Shown in pieces: positions 618 through 5,764 of a stretch of 64,000 nucleotides of DNA (positions are counted from its first letter, which is position 1; every line of letters begins with the position of its first letter). The stretch lies in NCBI RefSeq assembly GCF_001701025.1, contig NZ_CP016793.1:2542001-2606000 (forward strand), read 5' to 3'. The notes below the pieces were generated by a model. It was not told the origin of the DNA. It ran no database searches and saw only the letters and a program-made list of their open reading frames with translations. Both the position numbers and the translations under genes were made by a program. Origin of the DNA: Lentzea guizhouensis (lineage in GTDB: Bacteria; Actinomycetota; Actinomycetes; Mycobacteriales; Pseudonocardiaceae).

Positions 618-680
618 CCGTCCTCCTGGTGAGTTGCCATGTGCAGCGCCAAGGCAGACCAGCCGCCCAGCGCGACGTGA

Positions 681-700
681 CGCATCCCTCATTGGATGCG
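681..700. repeat. Short perfect inverted repeat in the hppA/helicase divergent region
   Basis: Seven-base arms CGCATCC and GGATGCG flank a six-base spacer, 65-84 bases upstream of the hppA start codon. It could be a hairpin in the hppA leader or a regulator site. Seen in the sequence only. Confidence 0.35.
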
Positions 701-832
701 ATGAGCGGGGAGTCTAGGGGCTGGTTGCAACAAGGCAACGAACCGTCCCGAAGCGTGCACACACCGTTATCCGCGCTGGAAGTCGACCGCGGCCCGGTCA
801 GGACTGTCGGTGGTGTATGCGAAGCTCGGGTC

Positions 833-3130
833 GTGGTGGATCAGGGACGCCGGTTGCTGGACCGGGTGCTGGCGGGCACTCCCGCCGGGGAGTCGCCCCT
901 CACGCACGCGCGCGATCTCCCGTTGCGGCAGGCTGATCACGTGCAATGGCCGTCGTGGGCGGCCTCCGCGGTGGTCGCCGCGTTCGCGGAGACGGGTGTG
1001 CGCGAGCCGTGGCGGCACCAGGCCGAGGCGGCCGAGCTCGCGTGGTCGGGCCGGCACGTGGTGCTCGCCACGGGCACCGCGTCGGGCAAGTCGCTCGCCT
1101 ACCAACTGCCGGTGCTTTCCACTCTTTTGGCGGACACGAAAGCCACCGCGCTGTACCTGTCGCCGACCAAAGCCCTTGGCGCGGACCAGCTCCGCTCGCT
1201 CGACGAATTGGGGATCAAGGGGGTGCGCGCGTCGGCCTACGACGGTGACACCCCGATGGCCGAACGCGACTGGGTCAAGGCGCACGCGAACTGGGTCTTC
1301 ACCAACCCGGACATGCTGCACCGCGGAATCCTGCCGCAGCACCCGAAATGGTTGCGGTTCTTCCGGCGGCTGAAGTACGTGGTGATCGACGAGTGCCATT
1401 CCTACCGAGGTGTTTTCGGTTCTCACGTGGCGTTGTTGATGCGGCGGCTGCGGCGGGTCGCCCGCAAATACGGCGCGGACCCGATCTTCGTTTTGGCATC
1501 GGCCACTGTGGCTGATCCTTCCGCTTCGGCGGAAAGGCTGCTCGGGGTGCCGGTTTCCGCTGTCGTGGACGACTTCTCGCCGCGCGCCTCGCGGACGGTC
1601 GCGCTGTGGGAACCGCCACTGACCTCTTTGGAGGGCGAGAACGGCGCGCCGGTGCGGCGGTCGGCCGGCGCGGAGACCTCACGGATCCTCGCCGACCTGG
1701 TGGTCGAGGGCGCACGCTCGCTCGCGTTCGTGCGCTCGCGGCGCGGAGCGGAGCTGACGGCGCTGGGCACCCAGCGGATCCTGTCCGAAGTGGACGGTGA
1801 GCTGCCCGCACGGGTGGCCGCCTACCGGGGCGGGTTCCTGCCGGAGGAGCGGCGGGCGCTGGAGAAGTCGCTGTCCACGGGTGACCTGCTCGGAGTGGCG
1901 ACGACGAACGCGCTGGAGCTCGGCGTCGACATCGCGGGCCTGGACGCCGTGGTGGTGGCCGGTTTCCCCGGCACGCTGGCGTCGTTCTGGCAGCAGGCCG
2001 GCCGGGCGGGGCGGTCCGGTGACAGCGCGCTGGTCGTGTTCGTGGCGCGGGACGACCCGTTGGACACGTACCTGGTGCACCACCCGTCGGCGGTGCTGGA
2101 CCGGCCGGTCGAGGCGACCGTGCTCGACCCGATGAACCCGTACGTGCTCGGACCGCAGCTGGCCTGCGCGGCGGCGGAGATGCCGCTGACGCGCGACTGC
2201 CTGCCGGACTTCGGCGGGGAGCTGGCGGAGTCCGTGCTGGCGGAGCTGGTGGCGGAGAAACTGCTGCGCAAGCGCCCGGCCGGCTGGTACTGGGCCTCGC
2301 ACGACCGGCCGCACGCCGGGGTCGACATCCGCGGCTCCGGCGGCGACCAGGTGGCGGTGGTGGAGGCCGACTCCGGCCGGATGCTCGGCACGGTCGACCC
2401 GGGATCGGCCTGCTGGCAGGTGCACCCCGGTGCCGTCTACCTGCACCAGGGCCGCTCGTACGTGGTCGACGAGCTCGACCTGGACAGCGGCCTCGCGATG
2501 GTGCACCGCGAGGACCCGGAGTGGACGACCCAGCCACGCGACTGCGTGGACATCACGGTGGTGCGCGAGGTCGAACGGCGCGACTTCGGCGGTGTCTCGG
2601 TGTCGCTGGGCGAGGTGGAGGTGACCACGCAGGTCGTCGGCTACCTGCGCCGGCTGCCGTCGGGCGTGGTGCTCGACCAGATCCCGCTCGACCTGCCGGA
2701 GCAGACCCTGCAGACCCGTGCCGTCTGGTACACCGCCGACGAGTCGCTGCTGGTCGCCGCCGGTGTCGAGGCGAAACGGATCCCCGGCGCCCTGCACGCG
2801 GCCGAACACGCGGCGATCGGCCTCTTACCGCTGTTCGCGACCTGCGACCGGTGGGACATCGGCGGCGTCTCGACGGCGGCGCACCCGGACACCGGCGTGC
2901 CGACGGTGTTCGTCCACGACGGCCACCCCGGCGGCGCGGGCTTCGCGGACCGCGGCCACTCGGCGTTGCGGGCCTGGCTGTCGGCGACCCGCGAGGCGAT
3001 CAGGGCCTGCACCTGCCCGATGGGCTGCCCGTCCTGCGTGCAGTCGCCGAAGTGCGGCAACGGCAACGAACCGCTGGACAAGGCCGGTGCCGTGCTGGTG
3101 CTGGACGTGGTGCTCGGCAAAATCACCTGA
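833..3130 (+). CDS. DEAD/DEAH-box helicase with C-terminal DUF1998 (Rv3649 / MrfA-like)
   Basis: Superfamily 2 helicase of about 765 residues, expected to act in DNA repair or processing. Walker A is ATGTASGKS (about residue 82), the motif II box is DECH in VVIDECHSYRG, and a helicase-C domain follows. Near the end a cysteine cluster, CTCPMGCPSCVQSPKC, matches the metal-binding signature of DUF1998/MrfA proteins. The open frame extends upstream to 629, but similarity to actinobacterial homologues as I know them begins around DQGRRLLDRVLAGTP, so GTG 833 (or 836) is preferred. No clear ribosome site precedes it, so the start is uncertain. Corresponds in position to M. tuberculosis Rv3649. Confidence 0.88.
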   Translation: MVDQGRRLLDRVLAGTPAGESPLTHARDLPLRQADHVQWPSWAASAVVAAFAETGVREPWRHQAEAAELAWSGRHVVLATGTASGKSLAYQLPVLSTLLADTKATALYLSPTKALGADQLRSLDELGIKGVRASAYDGDTPMAERDWVKAHANWVFTNPDMLHRGILPQHPKWLRFFRRLKYVVIDECHSYRGVFGSHVALLMRRLRRVARKYGADPIFVLASATVADPSASAERLLGVPVSAVVDDFSPRASRTVALWEPPLTSLEGENGAPVRRSAGAETSRILADLVVEGARSLAFVRSRRGAELTALGTQRILSEVDGELPARVAAYRGGFLPEERRALEKSLSTGDLLGVATTNALELGVDIAGLDAVVVAGFPGTLASFWQQAGRAGRSGDSALVVFVARDDPLDTYLVHHPSAVLDRPVEATVLDPMNPYVLGPQLACAAAEMPLTRDCLPDFGGELAESVLAELVAEKLLRKRPAGWYWASHDRPHAGVDIRGSGGDQVAVVEADSGRMLGTVDPGSACWQVHPGAVYLHQGRSYVVDELDLDSGLAMVHREDPEWTTQPRDCVDITVVREVERRDFGGVSVSLGEVEVTTQVVGYLRRLPSGVVLDQIPLDLPEQTLQTRAVWYTADESLLVAAGVEAKRIPGALHAAEHAAIGLLPLFATCDRWDIGGVSTAAHPDTGVPTVFVHDGHPGGAGFADRGHSALRAWLSATREAIRACTCPMGCPSCVQSPKCGNGNEPLDKAGAVLVLDVVLGKIT

Positions 3131-3156
3131 CCGGTGCCGCCGCTCCTGGCTACGGT
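3127..3156 (+). promoter_or_regulatory. Promoter of the leader ORF and nucleotidyltransferase
   Basis: CTGACC (3127-3132) and TACGGT (3151-3156) are separated by 18 bases and match housekeeping -35/-10 elements. The predicted start of transcription falls on the G of GTG 3163, six bases after the -10, so the transcript would be leaderless. Confidence 0.6.
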
Positions 3157-3162
3157 GTGGGT

Positions 3163-3210
3163 GTGAACGCCTGCAGCTGCAACGCCACCGACCGGACCCG
3201 TCGCCCCTAG
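3163..3210 (+). CDS. Candidate 15-residue Cys-containing leader peptide
   Basis: GTG-initiated mini-ORF reading VNACSCNATDRTRRP and ending at TAG 3208-3210. It starts exactly where the -10 at 3151-3156 predicts transcription to begin. Immediately at its stop codon lies a perfect 8-bp stem (3210-3217 with 3233-3240), followed 35 bases later by the start of a nucleotidyltransferase gene. Promoter, mini-ORF, hairpin and gene in this order resemble translation-sensing attenuators in front of resistance genes. No homologue is recognised; coding status is an inference. Confidence 0.45.
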   Translation: MNACSCNATDRTRRP

Positions 3211-3240
3211 GCGCGGCTGAGTCCGATGCTCCGCCGCGCC
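3210..3240 (+). promoter_or_regulatory. Hairpin between leader ORF and nucleotidyltransferase
   Basis: Perfect inverted repeat GGCGCGGC (3210-3217) and GCCGCGCC (3233-3240) with a 15-base loop. Its 5' arm overlaps the last base of the leader stop codon, so a ribosome ending or stalling there would affect folding. There is no U-tract, so it is more likely an anti-terminator or translational element than a plain terminator. Confidence 0.5.
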
Positions 3241-3275
3241 CGCTCGGCCTTCGCCACGGGTTCCTGGAGTCTGCC

Positions 3276-4049
3276 TTGTTCACGCCTTTCGCTGATCTCG
3301 ACGCACTGCTCGACGACTTCGTCTCGTCGGTGCGCACCATCCTCGGCCCCATCTACGTGGGCTCCTACGTCCAGGGCTCGTTCGCCCTCGGCGCCGGGGA
3401 CATCCACTCCGACTGCGACTTCATCGTCGCCTGCACAGAGCTGCCGTCCGGTGCCGCGCTGGAGGGCCTGCGTGCTCTGCACGACGAGATTCCCACCCGC
3501 CCCGGTCGCTGGTCGACCGAGATCGAGGGTTCCTACGCCGACGTGAAATCGCTGCGGTCGGTGGCGGGTCTCGGTGTTCCGTGGCTGTTCAACGACCACG
3601 GCACCCGAACGCTGGAGTGGGATCTGCACTGCAACTCACCGCACGCCCGCTGGACCCTGCGCAACCACGGCATCGTGCTGGACGGCCCACCGATCACGTC
3701 GCTGGTCGACGAGGTCCCGGCCGAGGTGCTGCGGTCGTCGATGCGGGCCGAGCTGCCGCACGTCCTGACCGGCATCCAGGAGTGGGCCCCGATGGGCAAT
3801 GCCTGGACACAGCGCTACATCGTCGCCGCGTACTGCCGGACGCTCTACACCATCCACACCGGAGAGGTGGAGTCGAAGCGCGGCGCGCTGCGGTGGGGGT
3901 TGAATGTGCTCGATCAGCGGTGGCACCCGCTGATCGAGCAAGTTCTGGCGGACAGGGACCTCGGCTGGGACGCCGACGCGGTCCCCCGTCCGGGGAGCAT
4001 GGAGCAGACCGTCGCCTTTGCGACCTACTGCGAGCAGCTCCAGTTGTAG
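3276..4049 (+). CDS. Nucleotidyltransferase / aminoglycoside adenylyltransferase-like protein (DUF4111)
   Basis: A protein of 257 residues with an N-terminal nucleotidyltransferase fold: GSYVQG is the GS helix and HSDCDF supplies the metal-binding D-x-D, as in AadA/ANT(3'') enzymes. The C-terminal half resembles the DUF4111 domain that follows in that family. It may adenylylate an aminoglycoside or another substrate; resistance is not shown by sequence. TTG 3276 is chosen because GGAG lies six to seven bases upstream and the fold begins right after it. A perfect hairpin terminator follows the stop, so leader ORF plus this gene form a closed unit. Confidence 0.75.
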   Translation: MFTPFADLDALLDDFVSSVRTILGPIYVGSYVQGSFALGAGDIHSDCDFIVACTELPSGAALEGLRALHDEIPTRPGRWSTEIEGSYADVKSLRSVAGLGVPWLFNDHGTRTLEWDLHCNSPHARWTLRNHGIVLDGPPITSLVDEVPAEVLRSSMRAELPHVLTGIQEWAPMGNAWTQRYIVAAYCRTLYTIHTGEVESKRGALRWGLNVLDQRWHPLIEQVLADRDLGWDADAVPRPGSMEQTVAFATYCEQLQL

Positions 4050-4061
4050 CGCGTTTCGTGG

Positions 4062-4099
4062 GCGCGCGCCGCGGGCTCACGGGTACCCGCGGCGCGCGC
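4062..4099 (+). terminator. Strong hairpin terminator after the nucleotidyltransferase
   Basis: Arms GCGCGCGCCGCGGG (4062-4075) and its exact complement at 4086-4099 form a 14-bp stem with a 10-base loop, 12 bases after the stop codon. No U-tract is present, which is usual in high-GC actinomycetes. Confidence 0.75.
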
Positions 4100-4500
4100 T
4101 CTCCACGTGCCGAACACTGTTTTCCCGCCTGCTACCGCATCTCGACCGGATCCCGTGGAACATCGGCGGAATCAGGTTGTCCGTCTCGACAGGACACGCG
4201 GGAGGCGACGGTGTCCACTGTCGTGTGACGAACTCCGGGGAGGAGCCGGCTTCGCCGATCGCGGCAGCGCAGGTGCTCTGCCACTAACGTTCCTCGGTCC
4301 GGTCGTGGTGCGGGAGGCTGTCCTTCGGGGTGCGTGTTCGGCTTTCGTGCCCTCTCCTGCGACCTCCCCCGAAGTGCGGGGTACGGGAGCAGGTCATCGG
4401 ATCGGGCTTGGTGGAACGGCCGTGCAGGGCATCGCCTTCGGGGTTGTCGGGGAGAGTCCACGACGACACCCAGCACGGCCGGGCTCTAGATGTAGTTGTG
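4100..4500. other. Gene-free stretch between convergent genes
   Basis: No ORF here has a ribosome site, protein-like composition or recognisable motif. One imperfectly placed inverted repeat (GGCCGTGC near 4421, GCACGGCC near 4484) is the only structure I see. Confidence 0.4.
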
Positions 4501-5121
4501 TCAGACGGTTTCGAGCTGGAAGCGGGCCGGGGTGTGCAGCGCCTCGGCGAGCGCGTCCTGCACGACGTGCGCGTCCGGCAGGTTCCAGCCGCAGATCGAC
4601 GGCTTGACCCGCCAGTGCACGACACCGTGCGCCATCGGGGTGGGCGGCAGCGGGATGTACTCGCCCTGGCCGTACAGGTGGACGTCCGAGTTGTTGGCCA
4701 GCTCGCCGACGAGCTTCGAGCCGGACTTCACCATGAACATCCACCGGCCGGACGGGGTCGCGGCGATCGGCACGGGAACGCTGATCGCCCGCAGTGCCAC
4801 GGCGGCGCGACGGCCGAGGTCGGTGCCGACCTCGATCGCGTCCACCGCGTGGCCGGTGGCGAGAAGCAGGCTGTAGGAGCGACCCGCCCACCACGTGGCG
4901 ACCTGGTCGGACCGCGTACCGACGCGGTCGACCCAGTCCCGGTGCACGGGGATGGGCCCGTGGAGCTCGAGCCCGCTGCGGCCCGCCCACTGGGTGACTC
5001 CCTGCTCCGAACCGGCCGGATAAGTGCCGGGCAGCACGGGCCAACCGCGGTACGCGAGGCTCACGGCCTCCGCACGCAGTTCGATGCGGAAGGCCCCGCG
5101 CCAGCTATCCGACCAATCCAT
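4501..5121 (-). CDS. Bifunctional DNA primase/polymerase-like protein (AEP fold)
   Basis: A protein of 206 residues of the archaeo-eukaryotic primase-type family widespread in actinomycetes, where it is usually a stand-alone protein. Typical blocks are visible: WRGAFRIELRAEAV at the start, WPVLPGTYPAG, DQVATWWAGRSYSLLLATG, DAIEV and PVPIAATPSGRW. Function in the cell is unproven; polymerase activity is inferred from the fold. ATG 5121 has a purine-rich GGAGG/GAAGGAAG stretch just upstream, and conservation begins there although the frame opens further back. It stands alone, divergent from nothing obvious and downstream of the Tad locus. Confidence 0.7.
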   Translation of the reverse strand: MDWSDSWRGAFRIELRAEAVSLAYRGWPVLPGTYPAGSEQGVTQWAGRSGLELHGPIPVHRDWVDRVGTRSDQVATWWAGRSYSLLLATGHAVDAIEVGTDLGRRAAVALRAISVPVPIAATPSGRWMFMVKSGSKLVGELANNSDVHLYGQGEYIPLPPTPMAHGVVHWRVKPSICGWNLPDAHVVQDALAEALHTPARFQLETV

Positions 5122-5314
5122 CTTCCTTCGCCTCCAAGGCTTTGACTCGACATCGACGTGGTGTCGGTTTCGGTAGGACACCGCGTCGGTGCCGCCACTA
5201 CAACTAACGACACCGGGGCCGGGCTTGGTAACCCCCGCCTCGACAACTGGTCGGTACAGCACGGCGAACGCGCTCGGGGTGAACGGGGAGCCGAACTGCT
5301 CGCAATTGGTTCGA

Positions 5315-5764
5315 TCACCGTTCAGCATGTCCAGGCGCCGGTGTGAGTCCGCTCACCGCCGATGAACGACCGCTCGTCGTGCTCCAAACGCTGCGATCTT
5401 CGGCCGGACCTGCCCTCGACCGCGCGCTCACCGGGCCGAACGGCGTAGTCATCGAGACCTCCACAACCACCTCCCACCCGTTCACCGCACACGATCCGAG
5501 CACGCCACCGTTCTCTCCGGCCACCCGTTTCGCCTGCTCACAGGCGTGCTGATCCCCCTCGGCAAGACGAGCGGCAGCCGCGAGGGCCGCCAGATCGGCC
5601 GCGCCGTTCACCCGGTGTCGAGCGATCACCGCGGCGCCGATCTGTGCACCCGCAGTGGCGACGACGATCAACAGCAGCATCGCCACCACGCCGTTCACCG
5701 CAGCCGATCCGCGCTCGCTGCCAGGCGGTTCACCGTTCGTCCCACCGCTCGTCCCACCGTTCAC
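5315..5764 (-). CDS. TadE/TadG-like pilus-associated protein (Rv3654c-like)
   Basis: A protein of 149 residues with a single membrane span near residues 22-45 (NGVVAMLLLIVVATAG) and a small periplasmic/secreted part, matching the secretion/helicase-neighbourhood TadE-like family. Its GTG start overlaps the TGA of the preceding TadE gene by four bases (GTGA, 5761-5764), which fixes the start and indicates translational coupling. It is the last gene of the Tad operon. The C-terminal third is rich in Ser and Arg and looks poorly constrained. Confidence 0.65.
   Translation of the reverse strand: MNGGTSGGTNGEPPGSERGSAAVNGVVAMLLLIVVATAGAQIGAAVIARHRVNGAADLAALAAAARLAEGDQHACEQAKRVAGENGGVLGSCAVNGWEVVVEVSMTTPFGPVSARSRAGPAEDRSVWSTTSGRSSAVSGLTPAPGHAER

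Follow-up and report, generated by a model that had tools for sequence, protein, structure and literature searches.

A putative translation attenuator with a leaderless leader peptide and a WblC/WhiB7-type promoter upstream of AadA_C nucleotidyltransferase genes in Lentzea and other actinomycetes

According to the available parts of their published descriptions, ErmDL and ErmCL are short leader peptides through which refolding of the mRNA exposes the Shine-Dalgarno (SD) sequence of the next gene, an rRNA methylase gene (PMC8298421, PMC10219788). In ErmDL, as given in the accessible portion of the source, ribosomes are arrested by macrolides and ketolides at Arg-Leu-Arg while Leu occupies the P site and the incoming residue is Arg, and this motif is strictly required for telithromycin and not for erythromycin (PMC8298421). 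Here, we describe a locus of Lentzea guizhouensis that combines comparable elements, located in a stretch of 64,000 nucleotides (contig NZ_CP016793.1, positions 2,542,001 to 2,606,000, forward strand), which in its full length is referred to as the window and belongs to a genome of one contig with 9,997,872 bases. Read from the sequence, a promoter, a mini-open reading frame (mini-ORF), a hairpin, an SD and an enzyme gene follow one another in that order (Table 1). In common with ErmDL, the mini-ORF contains an Arg-x-Arg motif (R-x-R), known here from sequence and in ErmDL the site of drug arrest, and refolding of the mRNA is predicted to expose the SD of the next gene. Unlike in ErmDL and ErmCL, the Lentzea ORF lies at the predicted 5' end of the transcript, R-x-R-R adjoins the stop codon, the promoter is of the WblC/WhiB7 type and the regulated gene encodes an AadA_C nucleotidyltransferase.

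The whiB7/wblC upstream ORF (uORF) attenuator, for which passages citing Lee 2022 report a terminator/antiterminator mechanism, likewise belongs to actinomycetes and joins a WhiB7-type promoter to a uORF that, in the same passages, answers ribosome-targeting drugs; unlike in that system, no terminator was found here. The mycobacterial polycysteine ORFs, as related in the available parts of later papers (Canestrari 2020, via PMC9031893 and PMC4633059), are also leaderless short ORFs that serve as translation attenuators, from which the present leader differs by a conserved Arg motif, by having no conserved Cys run and by not preceding a sulphur gene. The present leader would constitute a second gate, specific to its own gene, below WhiB7. 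No published description of such a leader was found among the titles and abstract openings listed in a literature search, in which subscription literature is thinly covered. The principle is already known; the combination of a leaderless start, R-x-R-R at the stop codon, a WhiB7-type promoter and an AadA_C enzyme appears new. If true, a leaderless, WhiB7-driven leader-peptide switch would join the known actinomycete attenuators, for the AadA_C (former DUF4111) family, whose substrate is unsettled.

We propose, with a confidence somewhat above even, that the locus represents an erm-type translation attenuator in which a leader peptide encoded by a leaderless ORF, a WblC/WhiB7-type promoter and ribosome arrest at R-x-R are combined. 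At the sequence level this is based on the promoter, the mini-ORF, R-x-R near its stop codon, four RNA arms (arms 1-4) and conservation across several families. Translation stress would cause WhiB7 to start transcription at GTG 3163, and the ribosome would initiate on this 5' GTG. With an unhindered ribosome, helices would form between arms 1 and 2 and between arm 3 and arm 4/SD (alternatively, 2:3 together with 1:4), closing the ribosome site of the enzyme. A tunnel-binding drug would instead arrest the ribosome when x of R-x-R occupies the P site, so that arm 1 through the stop codon lies under the ribosome footprint; with arm 1 covered, arm 2 would pair with arm 3 and the SD would be free, and the nucleotidyltransferase would be produced only when ribosomes are actually jammed by drug. 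Since the ribosome footprint reaches about +15 on the mRNA, the message would be covered by the arrested ribosome until roughly where the stop codon ends and arm 2 starts.

Table 1 Features of the attenuator locus, in window coordinates.
Feature	Coordinates	Strand	Remarks
Upstream gene, DEAH-box helicase	629..3130	+	TIGR03817; MrfA Zn-binding and Hrq1 winged-helix domains; promoter box in its 3' end
WblC/WhiB7-type box CAAAAT	3118..3123	+	5/6 against consensus GAAAWY; 3 bp ahead of -35; within the last helicase codons
-35 CTGACC	3127..3132	+	From sequence; CTGAC[CT] in 23/23 Lentzea loci
-10 TACGGT (TANNNT)	3151..3156	+	18-bp spacer; TANNNT in 23/23 Lentzea loci
Leaderless mini-ORF VNACSCNATDRTRRP-stop	3163..3210	+	15 codons, GTG 3163, TAG 3208-3210; predicted transcript start = GTG
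Arm 1, codons R-T-R-R-P	3193..3207	+	R-x-R: R11 3193-3195, T12 3196-3198, R13 3199-3201
Arm 2 GGCGCGGC	3210..3217	+	First base = last base of the stop codon; partner arm 1 or arm 3
Arm 3 CTCCGCCGCGCCCG	3229..3242	+	GCCGCGCC pairs with arm 2; CTCC and CCCG able to pair with SD and arm 4
8-bp stem GGCGCGGC / GCCGCGCC	3210-3217 / 3233-3240	+	From sequence
Arm 4 ACGGG	3256..3260	+	Adjoins the SD; alternative partner ACCCGT of arm 1
SD GGAG of the enzyme	3266..3269	+	GGAG ahead of the enzyme start in 31/31 leaders checked
AadA_C nucleotidyltransferase (PF13427, former DUF4111)	3276..4049	+	257 aa, TTG start

The elements named in the original prediction, made from the letters of the window alone, are all present: CTGACC, a gap of 18 bases, TACGGT, six bases and GTG 3163, then a 15-codon ORF whose stop touches a perfect 8-bp hairpin, and downstream of the hairpin a nucleotidyltransferase with its own ribosome site (GGAG at 3266-3269, TTG at 3276). 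The -35/-10 pair stands as noted, but the WblC/WhiB7-type box CAAAAT (3118-3123) had gone unmentioned, and the hairpin, although present as a stem, is not a stand-alone structure but one among several competing pairings. The proposed likeness to ribosome-stalling attenuators is supported, with orthologues keeping the mini-ORF and the stem and a start at 3163 fitting the promoter geometry. In this single sequence the parts are weak: a sigma-70 scan found no promoters (0.1 expected by shuffling), and no terminator-like sites were found at 2800-4300 (0.2 expected by shuffling). Chance is exceeded through comparison across genomes, because the promoter with its GTG recurs in 23 of 23 Lentzea loci, the mini-ORF in 21 of these and a like leader at 12 loci outside Lentzea.

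In the accessible text of PMC7157823, the WblC/WhiB7 promoter reads GAAAWY, 3 bp, TKGMNN, 16-19 bp and TANNNT, with transcripts starting mostly 7 or 8 bp past the -10. The window promoter matches five of six positions in the box, five of six in the -35 and the -10 in full, and GTG 3163 begins at the seventh base past its -10. The order of box ([CGA]AAAAT), -35, 17 or 18 bp, TANNNT and GTG is retained throughout the 23 Lentzea loci, which, judged by sequence, carry promoters of the WblC/WhiB7 type as does the window. The GTG that opens the mini-ORF lies 6 or 7 bases past the -10 in the 21 loci that have one; in L014 the first GTG is found 5 bases past the -10 and the mini-ORF start 7 bases past. 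In L025 (G015) and L026 (G022) the leader is absent, and a GTG six bases past the -10 is the start of the enzyme itself. These leaderless-type enzyme starts on the same GTG support the inferred transcript start at 3163, as predicted originally and in agreement with the promoter geometry. The enzyme in both loci should escape the attenuator, and the two absences may stem from a single event.

As the promoter box sits inside the helicase gene, the codons at the helicase end were examined. The last helicase Lys codon is AAA in 23/23 Lentzea loci, compared with AAA in 15/23, 1/23 and 0/23 at the three other conserved Lys columns within the compared part, and is AAG in the sole Lentzea genome without the enzyme; by eye, AAAAT at the helicase end was seen in none of 17 genomes from other genera. 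Outside Lentzea, TANNNT is located 6-7 bases ahead of the mini-ORF start in 11 of the 12 leaders, the exception being S. lincolnensis L091, and the WblC box is full in two Streptomyces loci (S. wuyuanensis L083, and L163) and partial in L082, L089, L091 and L162. The source genome encodes a whiB7-like gene (RGRPRK). This gene is L041 (G000:C1:1681778-1681924, minus strand), upstream of which a pattern scan found no WblC box, and by eye a weaker TTAAAT-3-TTGCAC-18-TAACCT (box 4/6) is present with an ATG four bases past the -10.

The enzyme is encoded in 23 of the 24 Lentzea-genus genomes examined, with the promoter at every one of these loci and the mini-ORF at all but two, and the 12 further leaders, also located upstream of this enzyme, come from Streptomyces, Kitasatospora, Actinospica, Saccharothrix and one additional genus. 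In the scan made to look beyond Lentzea, 80 of 128 relatives were kept, and 190 bases upstream of 58 of these were read by eye (fewer in L118 and L126), the Lentzea-group loci L061-L081 and L121 standing outside this reading. Nine of the 58 carry the leader (Kitasatospora, five Streptomyces, Actinospica, Saccharothrix and one metagenome-assembled genome), and 49 have none within 190 bases upstream, a distance beyond which a leader would escape. L027 and the Streptomyces loci L162 and L163 complete the total of 12; the metagenome-assembled locus L088 is the same as L028, which shares its genus with L027. By eye, the enzyme itself appears leaderless in Amycolatopsis, and no mini-ORF was seen in Kutzneria; no leader was seen at L029 and L030, and the split gene L031/L032 was not included in the leader reading. 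In a class sample, a close enzyme is present in 5 of 394 genomes, own genome included, and by eye the other four show no leader within 200 bases upstream.

Searched with a leader model, the 10 source genomes (L137 left out) each return one best match, located before the enzyme (E 6e-22 to 2e-4); six second matches in total (E 0.008-0.08) are read as chance. Among 392 Streptomyces-genus genomes, eight have a match at E <= 0.001, four real ones, all before the enzyme, and four due to chance, with strict filters that weak leaders may escape. In none of the genomes searched with the model was the leader seen before any other gene. In a midpoint-rooted tree of 49 enzymes, all 33 leader-bearing members fall into one 99/99 clade of 41, with five changes of the leader needed on the tree and two of them forced; a single gain followed by losses is possible on this topology. 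A remnant between two genes, devoid of regulatory function, would agree with the absence of the leader from two enzyme-bearing Lentzea genomes and from the remaining four close enzymes in the class sample, and with the unremarkable fold energy of the window leader considered below, but we regard it as very improbable in view of a conservation that extends over several families and, in the searched genomes, before one gene family only. As to a mobile origin, a close plasmid copy was not found, the search returning two Deinococcus records at 32-36%.

Peptide statistics cover 33 distinct leaders (21 from Lentzea, 12 from elsewhere), in all of which a short conserved leader ORF precedes the regulated gene, as in erm-type attenuators. 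The mini-ORFs comprise 12-18 codons, with R-x-R in 31 peptides and R-x-R-R in 29; 26 peptides end in R-x-R-R plus one residue, 19 of them exactly in R-x-R-R-A, and the x position is occupied by Thr, Ile, Ser or Val. The first Arg of the motif (R1) is encoded by CGG in 24 leaders, CGC in 6 and CGA in 1, with Trp TGG in the remaining 2, and the second (R2) by CGT in 19, CGC in 11 and CGG in 1, with other codons in 2. In the Arg codons of R-x-R the first two bases are constant and the third varies, including at R1, which lies outside the helix of arms 1 and 2 (helix 1:2). By analogy, R-x-R would here be the macrolide/ketolide '+X+' motif, and its presence in nearly all peptides together with the ErmDL precedent may point to a drug-dependent arrest in the leader.

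The Cys residues to which the original prediction had drawn attention are retained in part: one Cys, five codons ahead of R1, is kept in 30/33 peptides, to be compared with 31/33 for R-x-R, and may be part of the signal, whereas the Cys count ranges between 0 and 3 (none in 1 peptide, one in 11, two in 16 and three in 5). Cysteine-responsive attenuation through a leaderless Cys-containing ORF, in the manner of mycobacterial polycysteine leaders, would fit the leaderless start, the occurrence of Cys in 32/33 peptides, four of them with a run of three, and the single retained residue. It is nonetheless improbable, as the peptides with one Cys or none leave no shared Cys run and the regulated gene is not a sulphur gene; a conserved run of Cys codons, typical of a polycysteine leaderless attenuator, was not found in the 33 leaders despite the one retained Cys.

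Two pairs of leaders deviate from the common form. In L006 and L009 the ORF has lost its usual stop and extends three codons into arm 2 (QRG-stop), a read-through that should alter the switch. In L089 and L162, of one Streptomyces lineage, R-x-R is replaced by W-x-[DG] with the arms retained, which suggests a different sensed signal or decay.

RNAalifold, applied to an alignment of 13 leaders alone, yields helix 1:2 (7 bp) together with helix 3:4 (6 bp). Single-sequence folds of six leaders are divided between this state (L137, L083 and L082) and the alternative 2:3 state, in which arm 4 is bound by arm 1 or by sequence around it (window, L092 and L088), and judged by duplex energy all three helices are possible in all 33 leaders. 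Overall, mutually exclusive pairings, one of which closes the SD, are predicted and are better than shuffles on average, with seven of 31 leaders deviating and no covariation. Rfam returned four matches for window positions 3000-4300, all below the gathering score, and none for five relatives. Two exclusive hairpins would also be predicted for transcription attenuation, in which helix 2:3 would act as a terminator and stalling of the ribosome would permit a 1:2 antiterminator to form, the mode that the available passages report for the whiB7/wblC leader. We consider this unlikely, as positions 2800-4300 of the window hold no terminator-like site, a T-run after the stem is absent in the window, and the conservation of arms 3 and 4 extends to the SD, which a terminator alone does not require. 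The GC stem plus T-run of an intrinsic-terminator attenuator was accordingly not found, as judged for the window only.

The translation attenuator that we favour predicts that covering the ORF exposes the SD. With the ORF masked through its stop codon, the probability of an unpaired GGAG rises in 24/31 leaders, from a mean of 0.20 to 0.38, and with a mask 12 bases longer, which covers arm 2, mean SD accessibility in the 31 leaders falls to 0.09. In a control with the stop-to-SD stretch shuffled (60 sets; 26 leaders up to 200 nucleotides, five longer ones omitted), the masking gain is +0.17 compared to 0.00 for shuffled sequences, and for 13 compact leaders +0.33 compared to -0.01, none of the 60 shuffle sets being as high in either case. 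A sliding footprint of 29 nucleotides gives a mean exposure in 13 leaders of 0.30-0.33 when the P site lies 7 to 4 codons ahead of the stop, against 0.18 for the free RNA, with 0.35 at 9 codons, 0.23 at 8 and 0.10-0.14 at the last positions.

A number of observations weigh against this account. R-x-R is absent from two Streptomyces leaders (WTDRA, WIGRA), the usual stop is absent from two Lentzea leaders, and six of the 12 non-Lentzea leaders (L088, L090, L092, L093, L137 and L027) are without a good WblC box (<=4/6). The fold energy of the window leader is no better than that of shuffles (z -0.21), which was counted for the absence of function, and its rise under the full mask, from 0.32 to 0.53, is matched by 12% of its shuffles. 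Masking brings no SD gain in seven of the 31 leaders, namely six longer Lentzea ones (L006, L009, L010, L011, L012 and L022) and L088, and a mask ending 21 bases short of the stop already yields a mean of 0.29. The footprint scan is compatible with arrest at R-x-R and does not single it out: with the footprint at R-x-R, the exposure of the window leader does not rise (0.26 vs 0.32 free), L088, L089 and L091 behave likewise, and L082 gains very little. Covariation was sought and not found, with 0 double-sided pair changes in the alignment and arm comparison, and across the 33 leaders the arms of one and the same leader pair no better than combinations exchanged between species, a comparison for which the extraction pattern cut arm 3 of L092 wrongly. 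Of the conservation looked for in orthologues, the mini-ORF and the stem are kept in the 33 leaders, and compensatory changes are not found, the near-invariant arms being too alike for covariation to show.

Some of these points also bear on a further explanation, namely that the same RNA switch operates with its Arg codons kept for pairing only, any slowing of the ribosome (Arg limitation, elongation inhibitor) opening it without peptide-specific arrest. It overlaps with our proposal except for the arrest, and is consistent with the near-invariant pairing of arm 1, with the W-x-[DG]-R-A leaders that retain the arm without R-x-R, and with an exposure not unique to the R-x-R position. We nevertheless regard it as somewhat unlikely, as R1 lies outside helix 1:2 and is still Arg in 31/33 leaders, with three synonymous codons.

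The regulated enzyme is a distant relative of AadA (7uy4, E 4e-15, profile search). The ATP/Mg residues D46, D48, R188 and K201 are retained in the profile alignment, where the N-terminal match is weak, and the invariant E84 is, by its position, probably the catalytic base. AadA/ANT(3'')(9) and ANT(9), as described in the available part of PMC6065190, share the AadA_C domain and the ATP/Mg residues; unlike in these enzymes, Thr-178 and Tyr-181 stand in the profile alignment in place of the AadA substrate residues Asp-182 and His-185. According to the same part of that work, AadA-type enzymes with only the ATP-site residues may have another activity (PMC6065190). The equivalent of Trp-112 could not be placed in the alignment, and seven families matched, all under the NCBI curated cut-off (best 34.1 bits vs 193), the cut-off of an ANT model not being reached. 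Given these residues, 'aminoglycoside' in database names cannot be taken as evidence for the substrate. The leader peptide, in turn, hints at tunnel-binding drugs as the concern of the enzyme. Leader peptides of resistance genes often respond to the relevant drug, and this one therefore offers a direct route toward the enzyme substrate. A speculative extension, which we put forward with low confidence, is a two-input drug gate, in which WhiB7 would report general translation stress and initiate the RNA, the leaderless R-x-R-R peptide would next test for a tunnel-binding drug of the macrolide/ketolide type ahead of enzyme production, and the enzyme, an AadA relative lacking two known aminoglycoside-site residues, would inactivate a tunnel-binding drug, not an aminoglycoside. 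The integron aad leader overlaps the integron attI region. In the accessible part of PMC7588185, it is claimed as an aminoglycoside riboswitch, the RNA itself being argued to be effective rather than the leader peptide, and it resembles the present leader as a leader RNA ahead of an aminoglycoside adenylyltransferase-type gene.

Natural comparisons are at hand in the two Lentzea species without the leader and in the much lengthened leaders of others. Leader length in Lentzea exceeds 140 nucleotides in 16 of 21 loci and is 110-116 nucleotides in five, the long leaders including L005, L013, L024 and L021:799-1414 (the leader of G010). The extra length of L021 consists of about 18 copies of a unit of about 33 nucleotides, composed of an arm-3-like piece and an arm-2-like piece; matches to this unit are confined to this leader in 2/24 genomes, in an insensitive search that missed similar pieces of other long leaders. 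Elsewhere in the window, a bifunctional primase/polymerase N-terminal domain (Prim-Pol, PF09250) is encoded at 4501-5328 on the minus strand.

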